Positions 7,024 through 37,280 of a stretch of DNA of 37,587 nucleotides are shown here, piece after piece. The notes below the pieces were generated by a model. That model was not told the DNA's origin and did no database searches. It saw nothing but the letters and a program-made list of their open reading frames with translations. A program made the translations under genes and the position numbers. Position 1 is the stretch's first letter. Each line of letters begins with the position of its first letter. This stretch comes from a bacterium (GTDB taxonomy: Archaea; Thermoproteota; Nitrososphaeria; Nitrososphaerales; Gagatemarchaeaceae): the NCBI GenBank assembly GCA_027310575.1, contig DAIDAO010000015.1:1-37587 (forward strand). Reading direction: 5' to 3'.

Positions 7024-7437
7024 TTGAGCAGTCGTCCCGCCGAACTCGGCAGCGTCAAAGAGGGCAGCTACATCATCATCGACGGCGAGCCGTGCAAGGT
7101 CGTGAGCCGGGAGCACTTCAAGCCCGGGAAGCACGGGAGCGCGAAGGTGAGGCTCGTGGCGATATCCCTCTTCACAGGCTCGAAGAAGAGCTACGTGTCG
7201 CCTGCGGAGTCGAGGGTCGACATCCCGATGATCGACAAGAGGTCGGGGCAGGTGACCTCGATCATGGACAACACCGTGCAGATCATGGACCTCGCCACCT
7301 TCGAGGTGCTCGAGACGCCGAAGCCGACCCCGGAGGAGATGGCCGACCTGAATGGGACCATAGCGGCGGGGGCCGAGGTCGAGTACTGGTCCATGATGGG
7401 CCGCAACAAGATCATGCGCGTGAAGGGCGGCGGCTAG
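7024..7437 (+). CDS. eif5A: Translation factor aIF5A (eIF5A homologue, hypusinated)
   Basis: With the TTG start at 7024 the protein has 137 residues and begins MSSRPAELGSVKEGSYIIID, the usual archaeal aIF5A N-terminus. The longer ATG start at 6997 would add nine residues (MGEKARPLI) but lies only a few bases after a TATA-like box (GTTTAATTA, 6987-6994), which argues against it. An SH3-like domain carries the hypusine loop KPGKHGSAK (Lys36 in this numbering), and an OB fold follows (DIPMIDKRSGQVTSIM). aIF5A relieves stalled ribosomes at polyproline and at termination; the lysine is modified by deoxyhypusine synthase. The second TnpB gene sits immediately upstream. Confidence 0.93.
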   Translation: MSSRPAELGSVKEGSYIIIDGEPCKVVSREHFKPGKHGSAKVRLVAISLFTGSKKSYVSPAESRVDIPMIDKRSGQVTSIMDNTVQIMDLATFEVLETPKPTPEEMADLNGTIAAGAEVEYWSMMGRNKIMRVKGGG

Positions 7438-7544
7438 GGACTTTCGGTCTGGAAAAGAGAACCTTCCAAGACGGACTGTTCGCCTGATATTCCCCGCGTT
7501 CAAAAGCATTGGTTTAACGCTCGAACTCCCGGTGACGCCAGCCA

Positions 7545-8501
7545 ATGAAGAATGCGACAGGAATCGTACCTCTAGCAATACTCGCAGTGCTCCTCATCGC
7601 GATCTCGCCGATGGCCAGCGCCTCCACGCTCACAGTGAACCTCAACCCGAAGACCGGGTTGGCCAAGATAGACAGCGTCAGCATCACCAAGATAGTCTTC
7701 ACCTACCCCTCGGGGTCCATGGTGTCCAACTACCTGAAGAACGTCAGCTCCTCGTTCAAGCTGAACGGGACTTTTGCGAGCACCGATTCGGGCGTCCAGG
7801 AGCTTCAGGGCGCCTTCGATCATGAAGGCGGCCGAGTCTCCGTAAGGAACGCGACGGTGTCGATAGACTACACGGCCAAGGGCAATGCCACAGCGCTCGT
7901 CGTGGACAAGATGACCAACGTCTCCGCCTGGGTCTCGAACGTCTTCAGGGTCGTCAACGGGACTGTGAAGGCCGACCTCGGATGGAGGGCGTTCGTCGTC
8001 ACGGGTCCGATGAACTTCGACATGGAAGACCGTTCGGTCGATGTCAACACAGTCGGCTCGACGATGCAGGATTCGCTCGCTTCGCATGAGATCGTGGCGG
8101 GCTTCCTGATGGGCGCCTTCGGCGGCGGCGCCATATGGAGCAGGCCCACACTCAACTTCTCAGCGCTCAGCACTCCGCTCAGCACCTGGACGAAGAACTA
8201 CGATGCCTCGACAAACACCACCACGTTCACCAAGACGATAACCGGGTCGTCCACCTTCACGGCGTCACTAGACTACAACGGACAGAAGTACTCGCTCTCG
8301 GCGACGTCAGACCCGACGGGCGTGGTCACAGTGCAAGGATACGCGAACGCGCAGAATGACTCGCTAGTCATGGCACCAGCGCCAGCGTCGACAGGAGCCG
8401 GACTACTGGCAGTCGGGGCCGTTGTGGCCGTCCTGCTGGGCCTCGTCGGCTACCTCGCAGTCAAGCGCGGCGTCAGACCAAAGACTCCACTGGCATACTG
8501 A
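7545..8501 (+). CDS. Exported, C-terminally membrane-anchored protein, unknown function
   Basis: A 318-residue protein with a signal peptide (residues about 1-27, ending in an Ala-rich MASAS site) and a C-terminal hydrophobic span (about 288-308) followed by the basic tail KRGVRPKTP. The middle is rich in Ser, Thr, Asn and Val with many N-x-S/T sites, as in glycosylated archaeal cell-surface proteins. I recognise no domain. A TTTAA box at 7513-7517 lies 30 bases before the ATG. It follows aif5A in the same direction but has its own promoter, and a strong hairpin terminator follows. Confidence 0.75.
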   Translation: MKNATGIVPLAILAVLLIAISPMASASTLTVNLNPKTGLAKIDSVSITKIVFTYPSGSMVSNYLKNVSSSFKLNGTFASTDSGVQELQGAFDHEGGRVSVRNATVSIDYTAKGNATALVVDKMTNVSAWVSNVFRVVNGTVKADLGWRAFVVTGPMNFDMEDRSVDVNTVGSTMQDSLASHEIVAGFLMGAFGGGAIWSRPTLNFSALSTPLSTWTKNYDASTNTTTFTKTITGSSTFTASLDYNGQKYSLSATSDPTGVVTVQGYANAQNDSLVMAPAPASTGAGLLAVGAVVAVLLGLVGYLAVKRGVRPKTPLAY

Positions 8502-14327: not shown

Positions 14328-15371
14328 CTAGGCCAGCCTTTCTCCGTTGACCAGGACGCCAGTCCCCTTCTTGACCTTCCCTAGATGATGAGTCGTGAAC
14401 CCGTCCGACCTGAAGACGCGGGCGACCTTCTTCGTGTCCGAGGAGGGGACGCAGAGGCAGAGCCCGATCCCCATGTTGAAGGTCCTGTACATCTCGCGTG
14501 GCCTGATCCCCCCCTCTTTCATGAGAAGCTGGAAGATGGGAGGGACTGGGGGGAGGGTCAGGTCGAACTGCAGGTTCCTCCCGCCTACGAGCCTCGCGAG
14601 CTTGGAGAAGGAGCCCCCCGTTATGTGCCCGATGCCGTGGACTTCCGCCCCAGCGACGGCCTTGAGCGTCGGCCTGACGTAGATCAGGGTCGGCTCGAGC
14701 AGCGCGTCGCCCAGGGTCGAGCCGAGCTCCTCGACGTGGCGGGCGAGCCGCCGGCGTCTGAAGACCCTCCTGGCGAGAGTGAACCCGTTCGAGTGCAGCC
14801 CCGAGCTTGCGACCCCCAGCACCTCGTCCCCCTCGGCTATGGCCGAGCCGTCTATCAGAGCGTCCTTCCTCACGATCCCGACCCCCATCGAGACCAGGTC
14901 GAAGCCGCGGCCTCCTCTCCCCTTCACCACTTCTTTCATGATCGCAGTCTCCCCCCCTACGATCGCCACCGAAGCCTGCCTCGCTCCCTCGACCAGCCCC
15001 TTGGTGAGCTCGGCGACCAGCCCCTCGTCTTCCCTCTGCAGGGCGATGTAGTCCAGCAGCGCGATCGGCTCCGAGCCCAGGCAGATCAGGTCGTTGACAG
15101 TCATGGCGACGCAGTCGATGCCTACGGTGTCGAAGCGCCGCATCTCCTGCGCGACGAGGACCTTGGTCCCCACGCCGTCTGTGTGCAGCGTGAGCGCGGT
15201 GCCGCCGCCCAGGTCCACGACCCCGCCGTACAGCCCTATCCCTCTGAGAGGCGCCCCGACCATGCCCTCCCTGAGGGGGAAGGTCGCTTCGAGGCGCTGC
15301 GCCAGGGAGCGCTGGATGCGTCGGACGGTCCGGACGTCGACCCCTGCCCTGGCGTACGATTGATGCTGCAA
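14328..15371 (-). CDS. purM: Phosphoribosylformylglycinamidine cyclo-ligase (AIR synthetase)
   Basis: A 347-residue protein from TTG 15371 beginning MQHQSYARAGVDV, the normal PurM start. Motifs: LTLHTDGVGTKVLVA (ATP/substrate loop), DTVGIDCVAMTVNDLICLGS, AIVGGETAIM, and VASSGLHSNGFTLAR in the C-terminal domain, ending HITGGSF. PurM converts FGAM to AIR using ATP. It is the last gene of the long minus-strand purine operon, 13 bases after purC, and converges on purB. The length is normal. Confidence 0.96.
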   Translation of the reverse strand: MQHQSYARAGVDVRTVRRIQRSLAQRLEATFPLREGMVGAPLRGIGLYGGVVDLGGGTALTLHTDGVGTKVLVAQEMRRFDTVGIDCVAMTVNDLICLGSEPIALLDYIALQREDEGLVAELTKGLVEGARQASVAIVGGETAIMKEVVKGRGGRGFDLVSMGVGIVRKDALIDGSAIAEGDEVLGVASSGLHSNGFTLARRVFRRRRLARHVEELGSTLGDALLEPTLIYVRPTLKAVAGAEVHGIGHITGGSFSKLARLVGGRNLQFDLTLPPVPPIFQLLMKEGGIRPREMYRTFNMGIGLCLCVPSSDTKKVARVFRSDGFTTHHLGKVKKGTGVLVNGERLA

Positions 15372-15384
15372 GCGACCCGCCGGG

Positions 15385-16230
15385 CTAGAACGCCTTTCCA
15401 GTCAGCTTCTCGTACACCGCGATGTACCTCTGGCTCGTCTCCGCCACCAGAGCGGGCGGGAGCTCTGGAGGGGGCGGCGCCTTGGCCCCGGTCTTCCTGG
15501 CGGCGTCGAGCTTCGCCTTGTACCCGGCCGAGACCAGCCAGTCCCTCACAGGCTGCTTGTCGTAGCTGTCCTGCGGCTTCCCCGGCGAATAGGCGGACTT
15601 CGGCCACAGCCTGAACTCGTCCGGCCCGATCGAATCTCCGAGCAGGATGCGCCCTTCCTCGTCCTTCCCGAACTCGAGCTTGACGTCGGCCAGTATGAAG
15701 CCCGCGTCGGACGCGCGCCGCCGCAGGGCCTCGTAGACCCGGATGGAGGCCTCCTTCACGTCCCCGAGCTCGGCCTGGGTCATCCTGCCTTCCCTGACTA
15801 TCCCTTCTTCGGTGATGGGCTCGTCTTTCACGTCTGATTTGGTCGTGGGGTCGTAGTATGGCCGAGGGAGTTGTGCGGCCATGACCTTCTCGACCGGGAG
15901 GGAGACCTCCCCCTTCGTCAGCCTCTCCATCAGGCTCCCGTACAGGTACCCCCTGACCACGCATTCGACCGGGATCATCTTCATCTTCTTGACGACCATC
16001 ATGTCGTCCCCTTCGAGCCTCACCATGTGGTGGGGGACGTGCAGGGTCTCGAACAGGTGCGCCCCCAGCCTGCAGAGGACCTCCCCCTTGTGCGGGACCC
16101 TGGTCGGGAGGACGACGTCGAAGGCCGAGAGCCTGTCGGTGAAGTGGAAGAGGAGGTGGCCCTCGTCGAGCTCGTAGATGTCCTTCACCTTGCCGGAGCG
16201 GACGAACCTCCCAGGCGGGGTCATCTCCAT
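15385..16230 (-). CDS. purC: SAICAR synthetase
   Basis: A 281-residue ATP-grasp-like enzyme. It begins with [26 protein letters not shown], which is the diagnostic N-terminus. Later motifs are [10 protein letters not shown] (V-V-R-G-Y-x-x-G-S), [30 protein letters not shown] and [13 protein letters not shown]. It joins CAIR with aspartate to make SAICAR. The start overlaps the purE stop by about ten bases, showing tight coupling within the operon. A Pro/Ala-rich insert near the C-terminus ([18 protein letters not shown]) lies between the catalytic core and the last helix. Length fits the family of about 240-300 residues. Confidence 0.96.
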
Positions 16231-18729: not shown

Positions 18730-20166
18730 TCAGGTCTTCACCTCTTCGTCGGAGAGCAGAGGGGGGGTGATTCCGAGCTTGGAGTAGTCCCCGGTCACGC
18801 AGGCTGTGCAGAGGCTGTCGGCAGGGAGGCCGATGCCCTCGCTCAGTCCTTCGATGTCGTTGTAGTGGAACTCGTCGACCCCGACCGCCTTGGCGACCTT
18901 CGACGCGGCATTCTTGCTGTCCTCTTCGTCCTTGGCCACCCTGTGCGCGATCAACTCTTCCTTGCTGGGGAAGTCGATGCCCATGAAGCAGGGATGCCTG
19001 ATTGGAGGGAAGGTCACTGCCATCTTGATGCTCTTGGCCCCCGCCTTCCTCAGCGCGTCGACGATTATCTTGGAGCTCGTCCCCCTGACTACGCTGTCGT
19101 CCACGAGCACGACGTCCTTCCCCTTGATCGTGTCTCCGATCGGGATTATCCTCTTCACTACCTCCTCCCTCCCGCCCTGCCCCGGTTCGATGAACGACCT
19201 GATGCTCCCCCTGCGCCTGTACCTGTCCTTCATCAGCCCCTCGTCCATGGGGATGCCGCTCTCGGTCGCGAAGCCGAGGGCGGCGGGCCTGGCCGAGTCC
19301 GGGACGGGTATCACGACGTCCGCGTTGACCCTGAACCGCTTCGCCAGCGTCCGGCCGATCCTCTTCCTAGCTTCATAGACGGAGATGCCGTTCACGCGGG
19401 ACGACGGGTGGGCGAAGTAGGTGTACTCGAAGGAGCAGTAAGCCGTGGGGGCCTTCGGTGCGAACCTGAACGACTCCAGCACGCCGCGCTGGCCGTCGAA
19501 CCTGACGATCTCCCCCGGTTGTATGTCCCTCACGAAGTCCGCTTCGACCGCCTCGAGGGCGCATGATTCCGACGCCGCGATGAAGGTCTTCGAGTCTTCG
19601 TGCCATCCCAGGGAAAGCGGCCTGTATCCTCGGGGGTCCCGGGCCGCGTAGACCTGCCCCTTGTGCAGTATGACGAAGCAGTAGGCGCCGACGAGCTCGG
19701 TGGAGAGCCTCTGGAAGGCGTGGAACAGGTCGTCCTCCTCGCCGAGGTGGTGGAGGAGCCTGTAGCCCGCTGCCTTGGTGTCCGACTCGCATGAGAGGTT
19801 GAACTCCTTCATGACCGGCGCAGACAGCTTGTCGACGTTCACTATGGTGCCGTTGTGGGCGATCGAGAATTCGGAGCCGATCTGGAGAGGCTGGGCGTTC
19901 TCCAGGACCGACCTCCCCTTCGTCGAGTACCTGACGTGCCCGATGGCCGAGCTCCCGGCGTAGGGCGCGAGCTCGTCGGAGTAGAGACGCCAGTCGGTCG
20001 CCAGGCCCATCTTCCGGAAGACCGGCTTGCCTTCGACTGATATCCCCCAGGATTCCTGGCCCCTGTGCTGAAGCGCCTCCAGGGACTGGAGGACCTTCGG
20101 GACGACGTCCGCCCCGTTGGCCGAGCAGGCGCCCACAAGGCCGCACTTCTCCTTCACGTCCGTCAT
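18730..20166 (-). CDS. purF: Amidophosphoribosyltransferase
   Basis: A 478-residue two-domain enzyme. The N-terminal glutaminase begins MTDVKEKCGLVGACS. Cys8 would be the Ntn nucleophile after removal of a seven-residue propeptide. LQHRGQESWGI, GHVRYSTKG and IAHNGTIVN follow. The C-terminal phosphoribosyltransferase domain has the PRPP loop VVLVDDSVVRGTSS and IGIPLP-like VIPVPDSARPAA. Late Cys residues (CFMGIDF and CTACVTG) resemble the iron-sulfur ligands of Bacillus-type PurF, an inference. It commits PRPP to purine synthesis. Its start overlaps the purL stop by four bases. Confidence 0.96.
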   Translation of the reverse strand: MTDVKEKCGLVGACSANGADVVPKVLQSLEALQHRGQESWGISVEGKPVFRKMGLATDWRLYSDELAPYAGSSAIGHVRYSTKGRSVLENAQPLQIGSEFSIAHNGTIVNVDKLSAPVMKEFNLSCESDTKAAGYRLLHHLGEEDDLFHAFQRLSTELVGAYCFVILHKGQVYAARDPRGYRPLSLGWHEDSKTFIAASESCALEAVEADFVRDIQPGEIVRFDGQRGVLESFRFAPKAPTAYCSFEYTYFAHPSSRVNGISVYEARKRIGRTLAKRFRVNADVVIPVPDSARPAALGFATESGIPMDEGLMKDRYRRRGSIRSFIEPGQGGREEVVKRIIPIGDTIKGKDVVLVDDSVVRGTSSKIIVDALRKAGAKSIKMAVTFPPIRHPCFMGIDFPSKEELIAHRVAKDEEDSKNAASKVAKAVGVDEFHYNDIEGLSEGIGLPADSLCTACVTGDYSKLGITPPLLSDEEVKT

Positions 20167-23100
20167 GCCATCAGCCTCCCGATGGGGCTCTCCCAGGTCT
20201 GCGCCAGCGAATCGAGGTCCAGCCTTGCCAGCTGCCTGCCCCGGTCCTTGAGCGCGAGGTCCGTCCCGCCCGTGCTTCCGAGCCGGGCGTATTCGACGCC
20301 GGCCGACTTCAGGGCCGCCTCGGTCTCCGCCGTACTTCTAGTCGAGACGACGAACCTGCCATGGGACTCGGAGAAGAGCGCTTCCTGCGGCGTCATCGCC
20401 TTCCTGACCGCCGCTATGTCGAGCTCCGCACCCATCCTCGAGGGGATGCACATCTCGGCGAGTGCGACCGCGAGGCCGCCCCGGGAGCAGTCGTGAACTG
20501 CGCTGACCGTCCCTGCGCGCACCAGTCTGATCATGGCGCGGAAGAGGACAGAGTCCTTGAGCGGGTCGGCCTTCGGGACCACGCCCGCAGACACCTTCAG
20601 CACTCTTTCGTAGTACTCGGAAGCGCCCATCTCCTTCCTCGTCCTCCCCAGCAGGTAGACCGACTCCCCCTCCGCCCGGAACCCGGCGCTCGCCCTGCGG
20701 GCGTCTCCTGGAGAGATCCCGACGACCATAGCGACGGGGGACGGCTTGATCGCGCGCTTGGTCGAAGCGTCTTCGTTGTAGAAGCTCACCTTGCCCCCCA
20801 CCACGGGTATCGGGAGGCCCCTGCAGTACTCCGCCATCCCTTCGACGGTCTCCCTGAAGGCCCAGTAGACCTCTGGGTCGGACGGGTCCCCGAACTGAAG
20901 ATGGTCCACGAGCGCCACCGGCTCTGCCCCCAGCGTCACGACGTTCCTGCAGGCCTCGGCGACGCAGCCCGCCGCGCCCCTCCGCGGGTCGAGGGAGCTG
21001 TGCCTGCTGTTCGCGTCCGCCTTCGCGGCGAGCATCGACCCGTTGGGGAGCCTCAGGAGGGCGGCGTCCCCTCCCCCCGGCTTCACCACTGTCCTCAGCC
21101 CGACTTCGTGGTCGTACTGCTCGTAGACCCACCTCCTGCTGGAGATGTTGGGGGAAGAGAGGAGCGCGAGGAGCGATTTCGAGATCTCGGGCTCCTTCGG
21201 GGATCCCGTCGGCGCGGGCGGGCGGGGCGGCCTCCGTGCGGGCCATGCGACGAGGGGCGCCTCGGCTACCAGCTGGGCAGGCAGGTCGGCTTCGACTGCG
21301 CCCTTCCAGCGGATTTTCAGGGAGCCGTCCCCTGTGACAGTTCCTATCACGGAGTGGGGGACGCCGTACTTGTCGAGGATCTTGACGACCGGGCCGGCGT
21401 CCTTCGGGTCGAGGACCAGGAGCATCCTTTCTTGGGATTCGGACGTCATGATCTCCCTGGGGCTCATGTCCCCCTCCCTCTGCCTGACGCGGCTCAGCTC
21501 GACGTCTACCCCTGTCCCGCCTTTGGCGGCTATCTCGGAGAGGCCTGTGGAGAGCCCGCCGCCCCCGAGGTCCTTCATCCCGTGGAGGAGGCCGGTCTCG
21601 ACGACTTCGAGCAGCGAGTCGAGGAGGAGCTTCTTCATGAACGGGTCTGGGACCTGGACTGACCTCCTCTCGGACTCTGGCCCCTTCGCCAGGTTCTTCG
21701 ATGCGAAGGAAGCGCCCCCTACCCCGTCCCTCCCCGTGCTCCCGCCGACCATGAGTATGGCGTCCCCCGGGCGCTTAGCCTCGCCGAGCGTGAGCAGCCC
21801 CTTCTTCCCTACGCCGACGCAGGCCACGTCCACGAGGCAGTTCTTCTCGAAGCTCTCGTCGAACTCGATGTCGCCTGCGACCGTGGGGACGCCGACGCAG
21901 TTGTGAGTGATGATCCCGCCAGAGGTGACGTAATTGTGCGTTCCCTCGACTTCAAAGTTGAAGACTGAGAAGTCCCCCTCGACTTCTTCGATTTGGACAA
22001 TCTTCACAGATGCAAAACGGCCCAAAGAGACGCTTCGGTAGTGCTCCATCGAAGGCATGGTGTAGAGAGCCAGGCGCCCGTTTGCCTTGGCGACGATCTC
22101 GCTCGAGAAATTGACCTTCAGGGCTTCGATGCGAGCCCTTCCACAGATAGTGAGTTCGTAGAAGGGGACACTCGAGCCAGTGTGAAATGAGACGGAACAA
22201 GACGGCACGTAGGACAAAGATTGGAGGAGAAGCAGGATTTGCTGAAAGAGGAGTTGGCTAGAACTTCCAAACCTCAAGTCGATTGAAGCGGAATTCGAGG
22301 TTCGTAGGGATCCATCGCCCCTGAGTACACCCTTGAGCAGCTCGAGATTCAGCTCCAGGGGATTACTGTAGAATATGCTGGGGATTACCTTATTGTAAGA
22401 ATTTTCCCCTGCACCGAGCACCTCACTGAAGAACCAGCCTAGTATTCGGGACGAGACCCTGACCTGCACGGAGTTTGTCTTCGTTGCGCGCTTGGTGTAC
22501 CTAATCCGTAGCCCGTCCAAGATGGAACAGACGTCATGGATGTACTCGGACTCGTCGCGCCGAAATGTCCAAACCACTCTGGAGGTCCTTCCCGACCCGC
22601 CTGCGCCTTCCTCATCGTGCACGCACCCTTCAGCCAAATAGTACCCGACGAGCCGAGAGAAGCCCTTGTCGAGATTGATGATTGCGGGTATCTTCGTGGC
22701 ATTCCCTCTCCGAGGGTATAGGAGTAGCTCCTCTCTAGGCAAGCGGAACGTCGAAAGCGATTCGACTGAAAGCAGCTCGTTCAGCGGCAGATAGTTCATC
22801 CCAAAATAGTGGCACCTTCGAGATGAGCTTACTCCAATCTGGCGAAGGAGCGGGTCGAGCTGCTCTTTGAACTCGCGCAGCTTGCGACCGTTCGATTTTA
22901 CCGTAATTCCCGCTACCGCACCTCTCTCCTTGAGTTCGTCGATGAGGTCGAATGCCGTCTGCTTCTCCTGCTCCTGTACCGGGTATGGGAAGTCGCAGGC
23001 AATCGGCAGGGAGTCGCCTGGTCTCAGAGACTTGGCTTGAATGGCCGTAACCTGCCCGTCCCTTACGAGGAACATTGGATGATCTGGAGTTACTTCGATT

Positions 23101-23822
23101 TCGCGGCCCAGACCGGTCTTGATCCTTACGAGCCTACTCGCCTTAGCTTCGTAGACTCTCGAGACTCTCCGGAATTGCGCCTCGGAGTTTCCAAAATCAA
23201 AGGATAGCAGCCGCAAGTCAGAGAGTGGCCTGCTTATCGTCAGGCCATCCGCGTTATATTCATGAGAAAGTCTGTTTTGAGAGGCGAGAGCCTCGACCAG
23301 TTCGCTCGCTTTCGCGACGCGGAACTTGCCCGATTCGGTGTAATACACACTCTCGTTCTCCGAAAGGCAGTTGCCGTAGTCTGCGATTCCCTTGACCACG
23401 TTGCGGAGGAGCCACCGCGAGTGGCCGCTCGCCTCCGGGTCGCCGAACCTGAGCACGTCCAGGAGCGCTATCGGCCTGGTCCCCATCGAGAGGATGTCCC
23501 GGAGGACCCCCCCTATCCCGGTCGACGCGCCGCCATAGGGGTCGACCGCTGACGGGTGGTTGTGGCTCTCGATGTGGAGGGTCACGACGTCCCCCTCCCC
23601 GACGTCGATCACCCCGGCGTCGTACCCCGGGCCGAGCAGGACCCGCTTCCCTGAGGTGGGGAAGAGCTTCAGCAGGGCTCTGGACGACTTGTAGGAGCTG
23701 TGCTCAGACCACTCGGCGTCTATGATCGCCCACTCTGTCTCGTTGGGCTCGCGGCCCAGCAGCCGCCTGACGGTGGCTGCCTCCTGGTGCGTCAGCCCCA
23801 GCACGAGTCCGGCTGTGATCAT
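20163..23822 (-). CDS. purL: FGAM synthase large subunit PurL, interrupted by an intein
   Basis: A 1219-residue precursor. Residues 1-151 and 642-1219 are the exteins; joined, they give a PurL of about 729 residues, normal for the small (PurS/PurQ-dependent) type. Motifs: AEWSEHSSYKSS, VTLHIESHNHPSAVDPYGGA (ATP site), ILSMGTRPIALLDVLRFGD, then GIADYGN joined to CVGVPTVAGDIEFDESF, and further MKDLGGGGLSTGLSEIA and SRGGLAVALAEM. PurL makes FGAM from FGAR with ammonia delivered by PurQ. The gene lies one base after purQ and overlaps purF by four. The insertion is between two invariant residues of a conserved loop, so activity requires splicing. Confidence 0.96.
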   Translation of the reverse strand: MITAGLVLGLTHQEAATVRRLLGREPNETEWAIIDAEWSEHSSYKSSRALLKLFPTSGKRVLLGPGYDAGVIDVGEGDVVTLHIESHNHPSAVDPYGGASTGIGGVLRDILSMGTRPIALLDVLRFGDPEASGHSRWLLRNVVKGIADYGNCLSENESVYYTESGKFRVAKASELVEALASQNRLSHEYNADGLTISRPLSDLRLLSFDFGNSEAQFRRVSRVYEAKASRLVRIKTGLGREIEVTPDHPMFLVRDGQVTAIQAKSLRPGDSLPIACDFPYPVQEQEKQTAFDLIDELKERGAVAGITVKSNGRKLREFKEQLDPLLRQIGVSSSRRCHYFGMNYLPLNELLSVESLSTFRLPREELLLYPRRGNATKIPAIINLDKGFSRLVGYYLAEGCVHDEEGAGGSGRTSRVVWTFRRDESEYIHDVCSILDGLRIRYTKRATKTNSVQVRVSSRILGWFFSEVLGAGENSYNKVIPSIFYSNPLELNLELLKGVLRGDGSLRTSNSASIDLRFGSSSQLLFQQILLLLQSLSYVPSCSVSFHTGSSVPFYELTICGRARIEALKVNFSSEIVAKANGRLALYTMPSMEHYRSVSLGRFASVKIVQIEEVEGDFSVFNFEVEGTHNYVTSGGIITHNCVGVPTVAGDIEFDESFEKNCLVDVACVGVGKKGLLTLGEAKRPGDAILMVGGSTGRDGVGGASFASKNLAKGPESERRSVQVPDPFMKKLLLDSLLEVVETGLLHGMKDLGGGGLSTGLSEIAAKGGTGVDVELSRVRQREGDMSPREIMTSESQERMLLVLDPKDAGPVVKILDKYGVPHSVIGTVTGDGSLKIRWKGAVEADLPAQLVAEAPLVAWPARRPPRPPAPTGSPKEPEISKSLLALLSSPNISSRRWVYEQYDHEVGLRTVVKPGGGDAALLRLPNGSMLAAKADANSRHSSLDPRRGAAGCVAEACRNVVTLGAEPVALVDHLQFGDPSDPEVYWAFRETVEGMAEYCRGLPIPVVGGKVSFYNEDASTKRAIKPSPVAMVVGISPGDARRASAGFRAEGESVYLLGRTRKEMGASEYYERVLKVSAGVVPKADPLKDSVLFRAMIRLVRAGTVSAVHDCSRGGLAVALAEMCIPSRMGAELDIAAVRKAMTPQEALFSESHGRFVVSTRSTAETEAALKSAGVEYARLGSTGGTDLALKDRGRQLARLDLDSLAQTWESPIGRLMA
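21900..23369 (-). mobile_element. Intein with LAGLIDADG homing endonuclease domain inside PurL
   Basis: A 490-residue class 1 intein covering precursor residues 152-641. Block A is CLSENESVYY, with Cys1 as nucleophile. Block B is TPDHPMFLV with the Thr and His. The end reads HNYVTSGGIITHN, giving the penultimate His and terminal Asn, followed by Cys as the +1 extein residue. Two LAGLIDADG-type helices are visible, LVGYYLAEGC (about residue 391) and LLKGVLRGDG (about 496), with one acidic residue each, so the homing nuclease may be active. The DNA is visibly less GC-rich than the exteins, which supports recent gain. Confidence 0.95.
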
Positions 23823-29961: not shown

Positions 29962-30334
29962 CCCCAAACCAAGAAGTGCCCAGCCAGTCAAAAAATGGGA
30001 TGATGTTTGAAAGATTGCGAAGCAACTGCAGAAGAACTACCCAACCATCTGATTTCTTGACAGCACCAAAAGAACGAACTTCCCTTACATAACGTCCCGG
30101 ATAAGACCCGTATTCCACATCGTGCCCTTTTGTCAAATGCAGCCGGGCACTAGTCGTCGTGCGTGATGGTGCTCCCGCCACTGAAACTAGGTTCGAGTTT
30201 CGGAATTTTGATGGAGCCTAGAAGTGTAGGCTCTATCCCGCTCTATCGATGGTTTGGCTCTTCATCGGATGCCTCAGACGGCTCTTCCCGAAACCCCTTC
30301 ATCTAGAGCAGGTTACTCGGCGGCGCTTCGGGAT
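29962..30334. other. Gene-free stretch with a hairpin and the right 21-bp repeat
   Basis: No credible coding frame. GAGCCTA (30214-30220) and TAGGCTC (30227-30233) form a perfect 7-bp stem with a 6-base loop. Seven bases later comes the right copy of the direct repeat (30240-30260). The remainder shows nothing recognisable. Confidence 0.5.
30240..30260. repeat. Right copy of a 21-bp exact direct repeat
   Basis: Identical to 28303-28323. It sits just after a short perfect hairpin (30214-30233) and 75 bases before the dph6 stop codon. Confidence 0.85.
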
Positions 30335-31030
30335 TTAGGCGTTCCGTCTGGCCTTCGGAGCGAGGCGCGCCTTTGAAATCTGCAGGTACCCCGAGTCCCC
30401 GCGCCAGTGCGTGGCCGATTCCAGGACTTCGACCCTGCTCTTGAAGAGAGGGCAGTCGAGGACGAAGGTCTCCCCCTCCCCGCCTTCCAGGCCGACGTGG
30501 AACCTGAACTTCCTGCCGAGCGCCACGAGTTCGTCCACCGCGCCCTCGTCCAGGATCCTGCCCAGCCAGCTCTGATCGAGACCGAGCGCAGACACGCTCA
30601 CCATCAGCACGACGAACCCGTCCCTGACCAGCCTGCGGAGGTGGCCCTCGGGGTCCGACCCCCAGAGCGGAGAGACGCAGCCGAGCCCCAGGCTCTTGCA
30701 GACCTTCTCCACCCTGCTCTTCTGGTAGACGCTGGCGAGCGCGCCTGTGTAGACACCCTCGAGCCCGAACCTCTCCTTGGCCCCGGCAAGGGCCCGCTCG
30801 AGGTCGCCCAGCTCCTCCTCCTTGACCCCTTCCGTCGTGGCCGTGACCTGGGGGACGCCCATCGCCTGCGCCTGCAGGCGGGTCCATTCGACGTTCGGGA
30901 AGTGGAACATGTAGGACGCTTCTGACTTCGGGAACAGGGTGACCACGCAGGTGAGTTCGTCCTTCTTCGTGGCGAGCCAGGCGGCATAGGTGCTGTCCTT
31001 GCCCCCGGAGAAGAGCGCCGCTACCCTCGT
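30335..31030 (-). CDS. dph6: Diphthine-ammonia ligase family ATP pyrophosphatase (probable ACG start)
   Basis: A protein of about 231 residues. Its start region RVAALFSGGKDSTYAAWLA holds the PP-loop S-G-G-K-D-S. Then come YMFHFPNVEW, EEELGDLERAL, GVYTGALASVYQKSRVEKVC, PLWGSDPEGHL, GLDQSWLGRILD, and GLEGGEGETFVLDCPLF, all typical of Dph6/MJ0570-like enzymes. They perform the last amidation in diphthamide synthesis on EF-2. No ATG, GTG or TTG is in frame before the PP-loop. The codon expected to encode Met is ACG (31028-31030), seven bases after AGGTGG. The first canonical codon (GTG 30946) would delete the active site. It diverges from the srp54 promoter. Confidence 0.87.
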   Translation of the reverse strand, partial: TRVAALFSGGKDSTYAAWLATKKDELTCVVTLFPKSEASYMFHFPNVEWTRLQAQAMGVPQVTATTEGVKEEELGDLERALAGAKERFGLEGVYTGALASVYQKSRVEKVCKSLGLGCVSPLWGSDPEGHLRRLVRDGFVVLMVSVSALGLDQSWLGRILDEGAVDELVALGRKFRFHVGLEGGEGETFVLDCPLFKSRVEVLESATHWRGDSGYLQISKARLAPKARRNA

Positions 31031-31095: not shown

Positions 31096-31203
31096 ATGCT
31101 AGACTCGCTGAGAGAGGGCCTGCAGGCTGCAGTCAAGAAGCTCGTCGGAGCCGACTTGCGCAGAAACCGTGTGTGGGGTTCACTGCTCCTCCGTCGGGAA
31201 TGA
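31096..31203 (+). pseudogene. Truncated 5' end of srp54 (first 20 codons, then foreign sequence)
   Basis: The frame opens with MLDSLREGLQAAVKKLVGAD, which aligns residue for residue with the start of the intact SRP54 at 35958 (MLDSLREGLQNAISKVLKSN). It then becomes LRRNRVWGSLLLRRE and stops at 31201. Codons are GC-ending (GAC, CTG, AAG, CTC, GTC), like host genes. A proper TATA box precedes it at leaderless spacing. So this is the original promoter and start of srp54, cut off after about codon 20 by the island that follows. A short N-domain peptide might still be made. Confidence 0.85.
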
Positions 31204-31224
31204 CTCGACTTGCGTTGGGTATCA

Positions 31225-31500
31225 TTACTTGCTTTTTCCGACCTTGGTGACGGTTTCAACCCACCTATGACGGCAGTTCTCGCATTCGAAGGCCACTTCA
31301 AACGAGTCTCGCTCGATAGGAATATCTTCATACGTGACTTTGGCCACGTTCATGCCGTATCCTCTCGGGTCAGCGGCCTTGACGACAAAAGTGCGAGGGA
31401 TTCGCTCCGTTCCGCCCTCTGATTTCACGAGTTTCGTGCCCCGTGATTTTACCGCGAAGCGGTGACCACAACTCGGGCATCTACGCATGAACTCCCTCAA
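31225..31500 (-). CDS. Small double zinc-ribbon protein
   Basis: A 91-residue protein (start at residue 1 or at Met5). MRRCPSCGHRFAVKSRG near the N-terminus and FECENCRHRWVETVTKVG at the C-terminus each give a CxxC knuckle, together one four-Cys zinc site. Between them is a charged segment with DPRGYGMNVAKVTYEDIP. It resembles small zinc-binding proteins of archaeal mobile elements in layout. Nucleic-acid binding is plausible but unproven. It is the gene next to the left boundary of the island. Confidence 0.6.
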   Translation of the reverse strand: MREFMRRCPSCGHRFAVKSRGTKLVKSEGGTERIPRTFVVKAADPRGYGMNVAKVTYEDIPIERDSFEVAFECENCRHRWVETVTKVGKSK

Positions 31501-31611
31501 CTTGATTTAGGTTACCTGCCAAGTACTTGGGGCTTTGCTAACATTGCATATCGCCGGTGGAATTCCAAGGAAACCTTCGTCTGGGGTATCAGAAACTCCA
31601 AACATCAAGGG

Positions 31612-32172
31612 TCAACAGTTGGGGGTTGGGCAAACGTGACCTATACCTGTGCTCACAAAACTCTGAACGACGGTCACCTTAATCTGATTTACCGAATCTG
31701 GATTGTAGTAAATGACATAATAGCGGCCGGGATTCAGGTGGACATCCAGAGTTCCGTTCATCACTCCTTTGAGGACAAAATAGGGTGGGCACAGTTGGGG
31801 GCATACCTCGGGCTGGGGCGTCGTGTAAAGCGGGAAGTTGTCATACCCCGAGGCTGACAAGACATAAACTGAGATGTTTCCATCAGCCGTGAATTTCCCG
31901 GATATCGTTCCGTTCGTAGACAATAAGAATTCGACCCCGGTGGCGGTCCGAGGACGGACATCGGTAACGTTTCCTGTTTGCAAGATGGTGTATCCCATCG
32001 CGGAGGTAGACGATTGATCTTGATGGTTTCCTCCCGAAATCACTGACAGAGCTAGAACCACGACTAGAACAAATATCACTGCGCCGGCGACCAGCAACCT
32101 CTTCATTCTCGGGCCTGCCAAGCCGCTCCCATTCTTGGGAGACACCATGGTCATCGCTCGTTCCAATCCCAT
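31612..32172 (-). CDS. Exported or membrane-anchored protein, unknown
   Basis: Up to 186 residues; the Met at residue 23 (MKRLLVAGAVIFVLVVVLAL) may be the real start, giving an N-terminal signal anchor. The rest is a small beta-rich extracellular domain with N-x-S/T sites, a Cys pair (VCPQLCPPYF) and a C-terminal VCPTPNC. The phrase LNPGRYYVIYYNPDSVNQ resembles a beta-sandwich edge seen in archaeal surface proteins. No enzyme motif. It lies 15 bases downstream of the other exported gene, so the two probably form one operon. Confidence 0.6.
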   Translation of the reverse strand: MGLERAMTMVSPKNGSGLAGPRMKRLLVAGAVIFVLVVVLALSVISGGNHQDQSSTSAMGYTILQTGNVTDVRPRTATGVEFLLSTNGTISGKFTADGNISVYVLSASGYDNFPLYTTPQPEVCPQLCPPYFVLKGVMNGTLDVHLNPGRYYVIYYNPDSVNQIKVTVVQSFVSTGIGHVCPTPNC

Positions 32173-32187
32173 CGCTCGAACTCCGAC

Positions 32188-32637
32188 CTATGGAGTCGGG
32201 CTCTGCGGTCCGCTACACGAAGGGTCAGGAGCCATATCCGTGACAGATGCGTAGGCGTAGTTCACGCCTGAGGTTTGCGGATACGCTCCATCCCATGTAA
32301 TCATGACGTCCTTCGAATTGTCCTGATTTATTAGGCCGGAGTCCCAGCTTTGGCCGGTTGTCAGGTTGACCACCGGACCAAAGGCCCAGGCTCCGTTCCA
32401 ATACGCGGCAGCCTGTGCGTAACTGTCAGGCCCGTATGGGTGTATCATCTTTCCATAGAATTCCTCCTGAATGGCAAAGGAATCGCCTGTGACTTCGACC
32501 CAAGCGTAAGCTCCGCCATCAGAAGTGGTCTGACAAGACGCCACTGTTAGGCTGGCGTGAGCTTTCAGAGGCACAATCGAAAAGCTTGTCATCGGAAACA
32601 GGAAAAGCAACGCACCTGCGAACTTTTTCGGTGCCAT
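32188..32637 (-). CDS. Secreted protein, unknown
   Basis: A 149-residue protein with a clear signal peptide (KKFAGALLFLFPMTSFSIVP, cleavage near KAHAS). The mature part of about 120 residues is rich in Tyr, Trp, Ala and Gly, with one Cys near each end (VASCQTT, DPSCSGP) that could pair. The TATA-like TTTATTATG (about 32662-32670) is centred 29 bases before the ATG, so this is the first gene of the two-gene exported operon. No family recognised. It diverges from the HxlR regulator, whose operator is about 90 bases away. Confidence 0.6.
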   Translation of the reverse strand: MAPKKFAGALLFLFPMTSFSIVPLKAHASLTVASCQTTSDGGAYAWVEVTGDSFAIQEEFYGKMIHPYGPDSYAQAAAYWNGAWAFGPVVNLTTGQSWDSGLINQDNSKDVMITWDGAYPQTSGVNYAYASVTDMAPDPSCSGPQSPTP

Positions 32638-32727
32638 TGCGGGCTCAGAAATGACTTGGACATAATAAACTGAACTGACATCAGAGAAATCTTGTGATGC
32701 GTGAGAAACGATTTCCTCTCCAGGAGA

Positions 32728-32759
32728 TTACACAATAGAATTTATCTAGTATTGTGTAA
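32728..32759. promoter_or_regulatory. Perfect inverted repeat operator at the HxlR gene start
   Basis: TTACACAATA (32728-32737) and TATTGTGTAA (32750-32759) are exact inverted 10-bp arms around the spacer GAATTTATCTAG, which itself contains a TATA-like TTTAT. The right arm touches the ATG at 32760. This is the classic arrangement for autorepression by a dimeric winged-helix regulator. Confidence 0.75.
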
Positions 32760-33218
32760 ATGCTTGGGCTTGTGGGCGGTCAGGGAGTTCGCCATGATGA
32801 TCTGCAATTGAAAGAATACGCGTCCCTGAGCGGTCGCATTCATCAGCTGTGTCAAGATTTCAAGAAGGAATCCAAGCCCGCGCTTTCGAGAGAATCTATA
32901 TCGGAGACCGATAATAGAATTTCCCGGACGATACTGACGATGTGGATTATCGACATCATTCTTTTCCTCTCCGTTCGATCCTCTTCTCGTTTCGAAGAGA
33001 TTCGGAAAGAGCTACCCGGGATAAGCGGCAAAGTCCTTTCGCGCAAACTCACGCTCTTGGAAGGGAAGGGATTGATAACTAGACATGTGACAGGTTCGAA
33101 GCCAGCGAGGGTAGACTACCAACTCTCCTCAAGAGGTGTAGTCCTAGCGGAGTTGCTTGAGCCAACTATGATGTACCTTCGGCTCATCGAAGACTCCGTC
33201 AAACCTTGTGCTAAATGA
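32760..33218 (+). CDS. HxlR-family winged-helix transcriptional regulator
   Basis: 152 residues from the ATG at 32760. If the TATA in the operator is used, the real start may be the GTG at 32772 or the TTG at 32808. After a 60-residue helical N-terminus comes a winged helix: FEEIRKELPGISGKVLSRKLTLLEGKGLITRHV (recognition helix LSRKLTLLE) and the wing RVDYQLSSRGVVLAELLEP. This F-x-E-L-R-x-x-L-P-G-I-S-x-x-V-L-S-x-x-L pattern is typical of HxlR/DUF24 regulators. It probably binds the perfect inverted repeat just upstream. The gene ends 23 bases before the convergent LAGLIDADG gene. Confidence 0.8.
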   Translation: MLGLVGGQGVRHDDLQLKEYASLSGRIHQLCQDFKKESKPALSRESISETDNRISRTILTMWIIDIILFLSVRSSSRFEEIRKELPGISGKVLSRKLTLLEGKGLITRHVTGSKPARVDYQLSSRGVVLAELLEPTMMYLRLIEDSVKPCAK

Positions 33219-33241
33219 GACGTCGTAACCGCGCCTAGGGT

Positions 33242-34185
33242 TCATTGCGCGTCCTCTGGCACCACCTGGCAAATGCCCTCTGGTGGTATTCCCAGAAGAA
33301 GCCTGGCTCTAATGACCTTCTCTTCCAACCTCTTTCGCGGTTTCGCGATTTCCGCCCTGCAACGCGCTATCTGATTCCTCTTGTTCCGGGTTCTGATGTA
33401 AGGTTCTGTGTTCCGTATCACCTTCGCCAATCCGTCGGCCCCCATGTCACCAGCGCAAAACCGTGGCAGAGCTTCGAGGAATCCCGCGGGTTTGCATGCT
33501 TGGTCGGCACCACGGAGCATTCGACCCCGTTCGCGCGCAAGAAAGCGCAGATCCCGGCAAGTGGTAGTTTCTCCTTCTGGTAAATGCTCACGCGGTATGT
33601 GCTGTGTGATGCGTTAGCCTCGAAGCACCCTTCCGTGTCTATCCAGGCAGCGACCAATGCCCAGTCCCACGTAGCCCCCAACCTTGGTTCGGCCTCCGTC
33701 AGGACCATCTCTTTCTTGACGATGGCGCTTATGCCGATCTTGTACGTCTCCCCGTGCAAGAACCTTCCCCGCCATCTTTCTGGGACTTCGACGAGCACGT
33801 GCTGATTCGATTCTGTCTGCTGATGCTCCACTTCGAAGTCGCAGATCCCGATTATGGTCCCTCGAATGAGGTAGGTCGGCCCTACCTCGAAGTGAAATCC
33901 CGCCTTCGATTCGAAGGTCGGCAGCCAGAAGTCGAAGCGATAACGAACCCTCGTCCCCCTAACCCTGTAAACCCTCCCCACCAACGAAGCGGGCCCATGG
34001 AACGCCCCTTTTGGCCCGCTTACCGGAGGGTTCAACAACTGGCCCAGTCTCCACCAGTTGAATCCGGGCTTGGCCCTGCTCACCAGCTGTTCCAGCTCGG
34101 GGCTCATGGTTGCCTCTTTGACAGAGCTGAACTTGATTGTGTACAGCTGATTGGGCACGAACGTGCTTTGATGCTCTCTTGGCAC
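33242..34185 (-). pseudogene. LAGLIDADG homing-endonuclease-like gene with a one-base frameshift
   Basis: From GTG 34185, the frame shows three similar beta stretches (FVPNQLYTIKF, FEVGPTYLIRGTI, FLHGETYKIGISAI). The LAGLIDADG-type motif ALVAAWIDTEGCFEANASH follows, then VSIYQKEKLPLAGICAFLRANGVEC. The frame stops soon after FALVTW. A second frame continues with GADGLAKVIRNTEPYIRTRNKRNQ, the usual conclusion of this domain. The switch lies at five G's (33439-33443); one more G would restore the frame. It may be a sequencing error, a decayed gene, or frameshifting. Only one LAGLIDADG motif is seen, so a homodimer would be expected. It diverges from cas1 by 31 bases. Confidence 0.7.
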
Positions 34186-34216
34186 GTGGAGGGCAGGGGC
34201 CAGAGTCCCCGACAAG

Positions 34217-35890
34217 ATGCTGGCTGACCGAGCTCTTGAGGACGTCGGCAGGCACGGCTGGGTCACCGTTCCTCCTGAGGCGGCAGAACTCGCCGGGTGG
34301 CTACACGGCCTGAATCAGGAAGGGGATTCCCGTCTCCGTAACATCTACGAGTCGATGGAAGATATGTCCGATGAGCGGTGGGCCGCGGTCCTCAACCCCT
34401 CCGGAAGCGAAGTTAGGCGCATCTTGGACGTGCTCGCCGCCTCAGGTGGGCTTGACAAGACCGTTTGGTTCAGGGAACTCGGCCGCCCGGCAATTCCATA
34501 CGTCCTTCCAGGCAAGGCACCCTTCAAAGAGCAAAGGTGCGGCCAATGCGCGTTCTACGCCCCAGCGAAGCGGAGATGCGTGGTGTGGTGGCTGGCGAAC
34601 AAGCGCGGGAGATTCGTCCAGGAGCGGTCGAAGTGGCCAGGTTCAATCACGGAGTTCGAATTGCACAAGATGAAACATGCGTATCACATCGGGCCGCATT
34701 CCTCTGCCTGCCTCAGGTTCTTGGACAAGAAGAGGGACCACCTAAAGCCTGCAATCCCTAGGCTGTGCGAAATCTGCAGGAAGACCGTACGGCCTACAGG
34801 CAAGTCCGCAAGGTGCCGCAACTGTGGGACCCTGTATGAGAACTGGCACGGGAAGGTGAAGGTCCAGACAGCTTACCAACACAGATTCAACATGATCTAT
34901 CATGAAGTTACCGGGGGTGACTCGAAGGCAGACCTCGACGTGTGGAAGTCCAAGGTCAAGGAAGACCTTCAGGACAAGAGAGTCGTGTTCGGAATCGATG
35001 ACGACCTTGAAGATGCCTTGGCGGAGGAGCATCTGGAGCCAGAGCCGAAACTCCATTGGAAACGGCCAGCCTATGACGAAACCCTTCAGCAACGGGTCAA
35101 TACGCTGGCACGGAATACGGATATTGCGAGGCAACTCTCTATCGCGATGGCGCAAAGCGCCCTGAACGCGACCCGTAGGATTGCAAAGTTTGCCAAGGTG
35201 TACCAAGGCGACGCCAGCTCTCTCACTGCGAAGCAGGAGAGATACCTGGCTCTGATGAGTGGCGCCAATCCTGCCAAGCTGCTTCCGTACGAGGCGTTGG
35301 TGATGAAACAGTACTGGATTTGCTATGGGCTCGCCCTCAGAGAAGCTGTAGAATGGGTCGGTCCAAGAAAGAGATCGAGGTTTGTCCCCGAGTCCGTGGA
35401 GAGTCCAGCAGGAAGAGCCAGGGGATACTCACCGGTAGATGCGGCGATAAACTATCTCCATCAGAGGCGTCGGGGACGTGCGGAGCAGATTAACATGGAA
35501 GTGGGTTTCCATGGAACTTGTGACGGGTTCCTACACAAGAGAGCCAGTGGATCCAAGAAGACTGGTTTGATTTTCGACATGATTGATCCCTTCAAGTTCG
35601 CGGACAGAGAAGAGCTCCTGCTCGTGGTGCTCAATCGAGGTTTGACCTGGAGAGACTTCAAGATAGAGGCGGACAGGAGGGGGTCGAACTTCTACTACCC
35701 AGCGAACGCAGCCACGGCGAAGTTGGACCAGGCTGGGAAAGATGCAGATGGCCTTCTGGTGAGCTATAGGGGGCGGAATATCCACCTTGCTGAGGCATAC
35801 CGTGAGTTTGCGTCACGTCTGTTGGAGGTCTCAATGACATCTAAATCCGTGCCTTCGCCGGGAGATATGTTCGTCTTTCAGATGGACTAG
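34217..35890 (+). CDS. Solitary Cas1-family integrase-like protein with N-terminal Cys clusters
   Basis: 557 residues. The C-terminal half (about 285-535) matches the Cas1 catalytic domain: PYEALVMKQYW (Glu359), GYSPVDAAINYLHQ, then CDGFLHKR (His440) and LIFDMIDPFKFADREELL (Asp454, with Asp457). These are the E, H and D metal ligands of Cas1 integrases. The N-terminal half lacks the usual Cas1 beta domain. It carries CGQC...C (Cys108, 111, 121, perhaps 165) and a zinc ribbon CEIC...CRNC (Cys184, 187, 200, 203). No Cas2, Cas4, CRISPR repeats or PolB are nearby. A casposase-like integrase of a mobile element is the likely role. Confidence 0.85.
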   Translation: MLADRALEDVGRHGWVTVPPEAAELAGWLHGLNQEGDSRLRNIYESMEDMSDERWAAVLNPSGSEVRRILDVLAASGGLDKTVWFRELGRPAIPYVLPGKAPFKEQRCGQCAFYAPAKRRCVVWWLANKRGRFVQERSKWPGSITEFELHKMKHAYHIGPHSSACLRFLDKKRDHLKPAIPRLCEICRKTVRPTGKSARCRNCGTLYENWHGKVKVQTAYQHRFNMIYHEVTGGDSKADLDVWKSKVKEDLQDKRVVFGIDDDLEDALAEEHLEPEPKLHWKRPAYDETLQQRVNTLARNTDIARQLSIAMAQSALNATRRIAKFAKVYQGDASSLTAKQERYLALMSGANPAKLLPYEALVMKQYWICYGLALREAVEWVGPRKRSRFVPESVESPAGRARGYSPVDAAINYLHQRRRGRAEQINMEVGFHGTCDGFLHKRASGSKKTGLIFDMIDPFKFADREELLLVVLNRGLTWRDFKIEADRRGSNFYYPANAATAKLDQAGKDADGLLVSYRGRNIHLAEAYREFASRLLEVSMTSKSVPSPGDMFVFQMD

Positions 35891-35914
35891 CCTGGCAATT
35901 CGTATCGGCTAACC

Positions 35915-35923
35915 CTATTAAAC
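35915..35923 (+). promoter_or_regulatory. Island-borne TATA box now driving srp54
   Basis: CTATTAAAC is centred about 39 bases before the srp54 ATG, giving a leader of about 13 bases. A six-codon frame (ATG 35938 to TGA 35956) lies in the leader and its stop overlaps the srp54 ATG. Confidence 0.45.
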
Positions 35924-35957
35924 AACCGAGAATCCTGATGACCCTAGGATACATCTG

Positions 35958-37280
35958 ATGTTAGATTCACTCCGTGAAGGGCTCCAGAATGCAATATCCA
36001 AGGTGCTGAAGTCGAACGTGGTGGACGAGAAGGTCACCAAGGAGTTCGTCCGCGACCTGCAGAGGGCGCTCATCCAGTCTGACGTCAACGTCAGGATAGC
36101 CCTCGAGGTGACGGAGAGGGTCCAGAAGAGGGCCCTAGAGGAGAAGCCGCCGGGCGGCGTAACGAAGAAGGACCAGATAGTCTCCATCCTCTACGAGGAG
36201 CTCGCCAGGCTTCTGGGCGGCCAGGGAGGCCTGCAGCTGGGCAAGGACAGGACGAACGTGCTCGTGATGCTCGGGGTCCAGGGGTCGGGGAAGACCACGA
36301 CGACCGCGAAGCTGGCCCGCCTCTACTCCAAGCGCGGGTTCAAGGTGGGGGTCGTAGCGGCGGACACGTTCCGACCGGGCGCTGTGGCTCAGCTGAAGAC
36401 CCTGGTCGCGTCGTCGGGGGTGGAAGTGTACAGCGACGAGAAAGAGAAGGACTCTGTGAAGATAGCCAAGGAAGGCAGGAAGCGGTTCGAAGGCTCCAAG
36501 AACCTGGTGATAATAGACACCGCAGGGAGGCACAAGGAGGAGAAGGGGCTCCTCCAGGAGATGAAGGAGGTCGTGAACGGCGTGAAGCCCGACGCCACTG
36601 TGCTTGTGATCGACGGGACCATCGGTCAGCAGTGCTACAACCAGGCTCTCGCCTTCCACCAGGCCGCCCCTGTGGGCGGGATCATAGTGACGAAGCTCGA
36701 CGGAGCGGCGAAGGGGGGAGGGGCGCTGGCCGCGTCAGCCGCCACCGGGGCCAAGATATTCTTCATCGGCACAGGCGAGAGGATAGACGACCTCGAGGAG
36801 TTCGCCCCCACCAGGTTCGTGGGCCGCCTCCTCGGCATGGGGGACCTGAAGGCCCTCATGGAGATGGTGAAGGACGCGGAGGTCGTGGTCGACGAGAAGA
36901 TGACCCAGCGCATGATGTCTGGCAAGATGACGATGAACGATCTGCTCGCGCAGTTCGAGCAGATGAAGAAGTTCGGGTCTCTGAGGAAGGTCCTGGAGCA
37001 CATCCCAGGGTTCTCCGGCCAGGTCGACGCGAAGGAGCTCGACAAGGCCGAGGACAGGGTCAGGGTCTACAAGTCGATCATCCAGTCCATGACTGGAGAT
37101 GAGAAGGAGAACCCGGAGAGCATCAACGCGTCCAGGCTCAGGCGCATCGCGAAGGGGTCGGGGCGGGGCGAGAAGGACGTGCGGGAGCTTCTGACGAGGT
37201 ACAAGCAGATGAAGACGCTGGTGAAGACCAGCAAGGGCCGCGAGCTCAGGCAGATGATGCGGCGCCTGGGTGACCAGTAG
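35958..37280 (+). CDS. srp54: Signal recognition particle 54 kDa GTPase, with island-derived first codons
   Basis: 440 residues, full length. N domain (1-85), G domain with GVQGSGKT (106-113), VVAADTFRPGAVAQLK, LVIIDTAGRHKEE and TKLDGAAKGGGALAAS, then the methionine-rich M domain with MTMNDLLAQFEQMKKFGSL and SRLRRIAKGSGR for 7S RNA and signal-sequence binding. SRP54 targets ribosomes making membrane and exported proteins. The first about 14 codons use A/T-ending triplets unlike the rest of the gene, while a second, host-like copy of the start lies at 31096. So the 5' end and promoter appear to have been replaced by the island. The Pus10 gene follows directly. Confidence 0.97.
   Translation: MLDSLREGLQNAISKVLKSNVVDEKVTKEFVRDLQRALIQSDVNVRIALEVTERVQKRALEEKPPGGVTKKDQIVSILYEELARLLGGQGGLQLGKDRTNVLVMLGVQGSGKTTTTAKLARLYSKRGFKVGVVAADTFRPGAVAQLKTLVASSGVEVYSDEKEKDSVKIAKEGRKRFEGSKNLVIIDTAGRHKEEKGLLQEMKEVVNGVKPDATVLVIDGTIGQQCYNQALAFHQAAPVGGIIVTKLDGAAKGGGALAASAATGAKIFFIGTGERIDDLEEFAPTRFVGRLLGMGDLKALMEMVKDAEVVVDEKMTQRMMSGKMTMNDLLAQFEQMKKFGSLRKVLEHIPGFSGQVDAKELDKAEDRVRVYKSIIQSMTGDEKENPESINASRLRRIAKGSGRGEKDVRELLTRYKQMKTLVKTSKGRELRQMMRRLGDQ

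Follow-up and report, generated by a model that had tools for sequence, protein, structure and literature searches.

The protein encoded at 34217-35890 of the window (the whole 37,587-nt stretch of archaeal DNA analysed here), which we call Cas1L, is a member of a new, deeply branching lineage within the Cas1 superfamily, so far found in only one family of soil Thaumarchaeota. We give an even chance to the reading that this branch is carried in cassettes associated with homing endonucleases (HEs) beside essential genes, and that the cassettes would move by HE cutting and Cas1L joining. The catalysis, the cutting and the mobility are all inferred.

A divergent member of the Cas1 superfamily

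The window protein is a true but very divergent member of the Cas1 superfamily. Its features are as follows:

34217..35890, + strand: Cas1-like protein Cas1L, 557 aa, N-terminally truncated (profile and homology searches)
34538..34711, + strand: Cys cluster 1 (C108, C111, C121, C165), invariant in the four longest family members
34766..34825, + strand: Cys cluster 2, zinc-ribbon-like (C184, C187, C200, C203), invariant in the same four
35087..35848, + strand: Cas1 alpha-helical catalytic domain, residues 291-544 (Cas1 profiles, fold match, alignment)
inside 35087..35848, + strand: catalytic residues E359 (codon 35291-35293), H440, D454 and D457 (alignment)

The open reading frame matched the PADLOC Cas1 profile (E 2.7e-7) and TIGR00287 (E 2e-6, yet far below its curated cut-off), and fell 0.1 bit short of the cut-off of Pfam PF01867 (22.2 bits, E 8.9e-5; cut-off 22.3 bits), which two relatives, L014 (30.8 bits) and L020 (30.6 bits), exceeded. 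The profiles covered residues 292-485. The predicted model is weak overall (pLDDT 49.6, and below 50 in the catalytic stretch 431-458); with it, the top Foldseek match was the Cas1 structure 4n06 (E 1.6e-6), and VIA-align gave Z-scores of 17.0 to the casposase 6opm over 220 residues and 16.4 to 4n06. The structural match corresponded to residues 289-544 of the model.

In an alignment of 46 Cas1 domains, 41 of them from other Cas1 proteins beside the Cas1L family, all 46 sequences carried E, H and D at the positions of E359, H440 and D454, and all had E or D at that of D457. A Cas1-family C-terminal domain with Glu359, His440 and Asp454/457 at the Cas1 positions had been proposed in a sequence-only reading, which had named a Cas1 profile search, comparison of a predicted structure with casposase and Cas1 structures, and a survey of homologues as ways of checking it; the profile matches, the alignment and, within the reach of the model, the fold match all bear the proposal out. 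Judged from its sequence, Cas1L may be active as an integrase or nuclease. It was the only Cas1 found in the genome from which the window comes, which is 97% complete.

Distribution and place in the Cas1 tree

Cas1L was present in 7 of the 46 genomes of the archaeal family (that of the window and six others), and was found in none of 400 genomes sampled from the class outside it. No relatives were found in viral contigs or in plasmids, and further contig scans returned three loci only, each an already known relative. Three relatives are full-length, at 824, 837 and 891 aa.

In the tree of the 46 Cas1 domains, the Cas1L family formed its own branch with 100/100 support and a stem of 3.6 changes per column, outside the casposase-like group. 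Stand-alone Cas1 proteins from the same genus clustered with casposase-like Cas1 from the order. The reference sequences are named only "casposase-like", because a neighbouring 944-aa protein considered as a possible PolB had no Pfam match. Canonical or casposase-like Cas1 genes also occur in other genomes of the archaeal family (L037-L041), and these were placed apart from Cas1L.

One relative consists of a Cas1 domain alone. This 335-aa protein (L020, 8760-9767 on contig C11 of genome G033) is encoded in a same-strand row with Nob1-like (PIN_6) and TFIIB genes, with no HE beside it, and may be a domesticated copy.

Cysteine clusters and a missing N-terminus

Both Cys4 clusters precede the catalytic domain, and by their residue pattern they are metal-binding-like; the region of cluster 2 gave zinc-ribbon profile matches, all of them sub-threshold. 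The earlier observation of two N-terminal Cys clusters was confirmed, and the survey of homologues showed them to be a shared feature of the family. Less of the accompanying description stood: the clusters had been taken to make up the N-terminal half of the protein, and that half is just the middle part of the full family protein. The window copy lacks about 265 N-terminal residues that its relatives have, aligning with the 824-aa relative only from residue 256 or 261 of the latter onward, and homology begins just upstream of the ATG, at about 34205 and at the earliest 34190. No piece of the missing N-terminus was found in the window's own genome. Intact members begin with an N-terminal domain of some 265 aa, continue with a middle part that holds the two Cys4 clusters, and end in the Cas1 catalytic domain.

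The N-terminal beta domain of Cas1 was not recognised: the region is of low confidence in both models, and sequence searches gave no match. We also considered the N-terminal domain as a remnant of an SF2 helicase, on the basis of a weak fold match (Z-score about 6.5) and a look-alike order of motifs, and rejected this assignment for want of sequence support.

The truncation raises the possibility that the window copy has lost both its N-terminus and its partner and is a decaying, functionless remnant whose frame persists in GC-rich DNA. This reading, which concerns the window copy only, is a serious rival, if on balance less likely than not. It draws on the loss of some 265 residues, on a neighbouring HE-like frame that is frameshifted (see below) and on decayed Cas1L copies in two other genomes (G040 and G043), and has to contend with 557 open codons in which catalytic and Cys residues are intact. 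The branch length of the window copy (0.29) is also like that of full-length copies (0.26 and 0.33), and a relative-rate comparison gave no clear excess over intact copies; the rest of the protein evolves no faster than they do. Being truncated and next to a frameshifted HE-like frame, the window copy may be an immobile remnant, and such decay is compatible with the preferred reading of HE-associated cassettes for the family as a whole.

An insert between Dph6 and SRP54

The window copy lies at the end of an insert, which is flanked by host genes:

30338..30946, - strand: Dph6-type diphthamide synthase, left host neighbour (PF01902, E 1.1e-56)
31096..31155, + strand: 20 codons left over from an SRP54 5' end, aligning without a break to the Dph6-SRP54 region of genome G010
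31156..35957, no strand: insert of about 4.8 kb ending with Cas1L, relative to genomes with Dph6 beside SRP54
31612..32172, - strand: short protein with a hydrophobic N-terminal stretch, no known family, in the insert
32188..32637, - strand: short protein with a signal-like N-terminus, no known family, in the insert
32760..33218, + strand: HxlR-family regulator, in the insert (PF01638, E 6.3e-15)
33245..34107, - strand: LAGLIDADG-like HE open reading frame, frameshifted; putative assignment from a single motif, WALVAAWIDTEGCF, seen by eye
35958..37280, + strand: complete SRP54, whose promoter and 5' end are unlike those of the leftover copy

Dph6 directly adjoins SRP54 in two genomes (G010 and G023), while 4.8 kb separate them in the window. 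Aligned with G010, the window matches from Dph6 onward, over the promoter and the 20 initial codons of SRP54, beyond which the match ends. When the 5' ends were compared, using only sequences with a proper start, the first 60 nt of the leftover and the complete SRP54 were 57% identical, and this diverged 60-nt segment was the only repeated sequence flanking the insert. In several members of the genus, Dph6 and SRP54 are instead separated by a methyltransferase-like gene, and the promoter there resembles that of the complete SRP54. SRP54 5' ends of two different types thus lie on either side of the insert, a layout suggestive of recombination between SRP54 alleles.

The HE-like sequence in the insert consists of two overlapping frames (33421-34107 and 33245-33436) separated by a frameshift, and had no Pfam or PDB sequence match. 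A leftover piece of a target gene was also found in G043, where a 3' fragment of rpL10e remains beyond the complete gene. These two loci were the only ones with leftovers, as searches at L014, L015, L016 and L018 gave none above shuffles besides self and Dph6 matches.

As the window comes from a single assembled genome in 61 contigs, and the Cas1L copy of G041 is broken at contig ends, the contig might join unrelated pieces, which would make both the truncation and the SRP54 duplicate false. We regard such an artefact as highly improbable: on the two sides of the insert lie the genes expected from synteny, Dph6 and SRP54, a pairing that a chance chimera would not recreate, and a decayed Cas1L occupies the same Dph6-SRP54 site in G040.

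Other features of the window were noted in passing. Next to Dph6, about 72 nt (30239-30311) are 92-99% identical in eight relatives from the genus and fold with a z-score of -2.2; they have no Rfam match and are perhaps a small RNA. The window also encodes a PurL-like AIRS protein (20163-23822) with an intein that contains a LAGLIDADG_3 domain, and an IS605 OrfB/TnpB-like protein (5736-6923; PF01385, PF07282).

Partner genes beside essential genes

Cas1L had been described as solitary on the basis of the window, which did not hold for the family: intact relatives, besides being longer, usually stand divergent from a small gene, nuc, and near an HE gene, beside an essential gene. At five loci (L014, L015, L016, L017 and L019) Cas1L is followed in order by divergent nuc, an endonuclease gene and an essential gene; L015 has a broken nuc frame and L019 a decayed Cas1L. 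Cassettes at rpL10e carried an HE of LAGLIDADG type in four genomes (G031, G042, G041 and G043), among which G041 has a contig-edge copy and G043 a decayed one. In one genome (G033) the cassette lies at PCNA and carries an HNH-type endonuclease. The divergent Cas1L-nuc pair is therefore kept at two kinds of site that differ in their endonuclease.

The rpL10e-site HE family was assigned to LAGLIDADG from its motif, a PHROG endonuclease match and a homologue in the window's own genome; this homologue, beside PCNA, passes the Pfam LAGLIDADG_1 threshold. The product of nuc is nuclease-like by motif only. Its assignment as a PD-(D/E)XK nuclease was not retained, since the motif was seen by eye and a profile search against the PDB gave no match.

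The endonucleases are more widely distributed than Cas1L. At the trm11-rpL10e site, an HE of this LAGLIDADG-type family was present in 9 genomes, with Cas1L nearby in only 4 of them. HEs of the family without Cas1L adjoin rpL10e, in the window's own genome as well, and also lie beside uS9 and enolase. Pairs of nuc and HE without Cas1L were found next to PCNA and also, in G033, next to rpL10e. Altogether, about four sites have nuc-HE but no Cas1L, so Cas1L is not required for the presence of these genes.

These counts bring up the possibility that Cas1L is a passenger, in which the HE alone would spread the cassette by "intronless homing" while Cas1L-nuc hitchhikes and serves an unrelated role, such as that of a defence or repair nuclease. 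The cassettes that lack Cas1L, the lone HE beside uS9 and enolase and the absence of clear terminal inverted repeats (TIRs) all fit such a role, which we hold unlikely but consider a serious rival. It is less easily reconciled with the divergent Cas1L-nuc pairing retained across sites with differing endonucleases, or with the conservation of every Cas1 active-site position.

Several loci illustrate the spread of the endonucleases in this archaeal family. Contig C17 of the window's own genome (L188) carries two free-standing LAGLIDADG-type genes (7121-8330 and 14424-15923), one directly upstream of rpL10e and one, with nuc, downstream of PCNA. In G033, which has an intact Cas1L at PCNA instead, the trm11-rpL10e gap (L120, 3064-9325) is about 6 kb and holds nuc and HE without Cas1L. 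Related HE genes lie between uS9 and enolase in L194 and L196, with a similar gene row in L195, which suggests that several conserved genes of this archaeal family are homing sites.

Comparison with CRISPR systems and casposons

The window contained no tandem repeat resembling a CRISPR array, and no Cas2-like gene was noticed among the genes neighbouring any Cas1L copy. The earlier statement that the window lacks an array and PolB can be put more precisely, as there is no array-like repeat, and the stretches from Cas1L to the host genes on either side hold no other open reading frame large enough for PolB, the gene expected in casposons of families 1-4. Cas1L and CRISPR Cas1 (TIGR00287/PF01867) share a common fold and active-site positions; Cas1L differs in its array-less window, its standing as the sole Cas1 of its genome, its own N-terminal domains and the very long branch that separates it.

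TIRs above shuffles were absent from four of five Cas1L loci, and the fifth (L015) had one marginal 17-nt inverted match, barely above shuffles. Nothing solid emerged from a search for fresh target-site duplications or direct repeats at the same five loci. As neither was found, there is no direct sign of Cas1-type transposition.

Like casposases (PMC4046053; PMC9755687), Cas1L is a Cas1-family enzyme outside CRISPR that keeps the catalytic residues, and the two share extra zinc-binding domains in some casposon members, HNH nuclease genes nearby and insertion at conserved genes in Thaumarchaeota. Cas1L could accordingly be the casposase of a variant without PolB, with short or degenerate ends and staggered strand transfer. 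The best structural match is to a casposase, and a joint clade of Cas1L and casposase-like Cas1 was not rejected (p-AU 0.136), leaving room for a casposase origin; PolB-poor casposons have been reported as a proposed family 5 (PMC9755687), as has an N-terminal zinc domain in the casposase NitAL212-C1 (PMC4046053, Krupovic et al. 2014). Even so, this reading seems quite unlikely given the separate deep branch, the lack of convincing TIRs at the five loci and the unrecognised beta domain. The partners of Cas1L also differ from those of casposons, being a nuclease-like protein and HEs that correlate with the site. The tree, the TIR search and the missing PolB agree with the original suggestion of a distinct family, set apart from both CRISPR Cas1 and typical casposons.

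Two further systems bear comparison. Cas1-solo group 1 of Methanomicrobiales (PMC4046053) is likewise a stand-alone Cas1 homologue without an evident casposon, but it does not have the full set of active-site residues that Cas1L keeps. Free-standing HEs and T4-type intronless homing (PMC2988022) share the HE beside a conserved gene, the patchy distribution and allele differences around the site; in addition to the HE, some cassettes here contain a gene of the Cas1 family and another that is nuclease-like.

A possible route of mobility and its meaning

Under the preferred reading of HE-associated cassettes, the HE would cut the conserved gene in a genome lacking the cassette. The cassette, bearing a copy of the gene end that is either altered or complete, would then be copied or inserted at the cut gene, with Cas1L acting as an integrase or nuclease that joins DNA ends during this copying or insertion. 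We think it unlikely, though conceivable, that these are HE-guided Cas1 elements in the full sense, in which the HE would pick the essential gene, Cas1L and its partner nuclease would insert a cassette supplying the replacement gene end, and the choice of target would be exchanged by swapping the HE.

Most of what is known of Cas1 outside CRISPR comes from casposons, which have been proposed as the ancestors of CRISPR adaptation. We found no published description of Cas1 with homing endonucleases in the open-access literature, and Cas1L beside predicted site-specific DNA-cutting enzymes is, to that extent, an undescribed setting for Cas1. The loci offer defined empty and filled sites, along with full-length proteins, for testing. 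Cas1L would place another deep branch in the Cas1 tree. It would represent a second, apparently mobile Cas1 lineage outside CRISPR that keeps its active-site positions, differs at the N-terminus and has HE partners, a partnership that would offer a possible new way of aiming Cas1-type chemistry.
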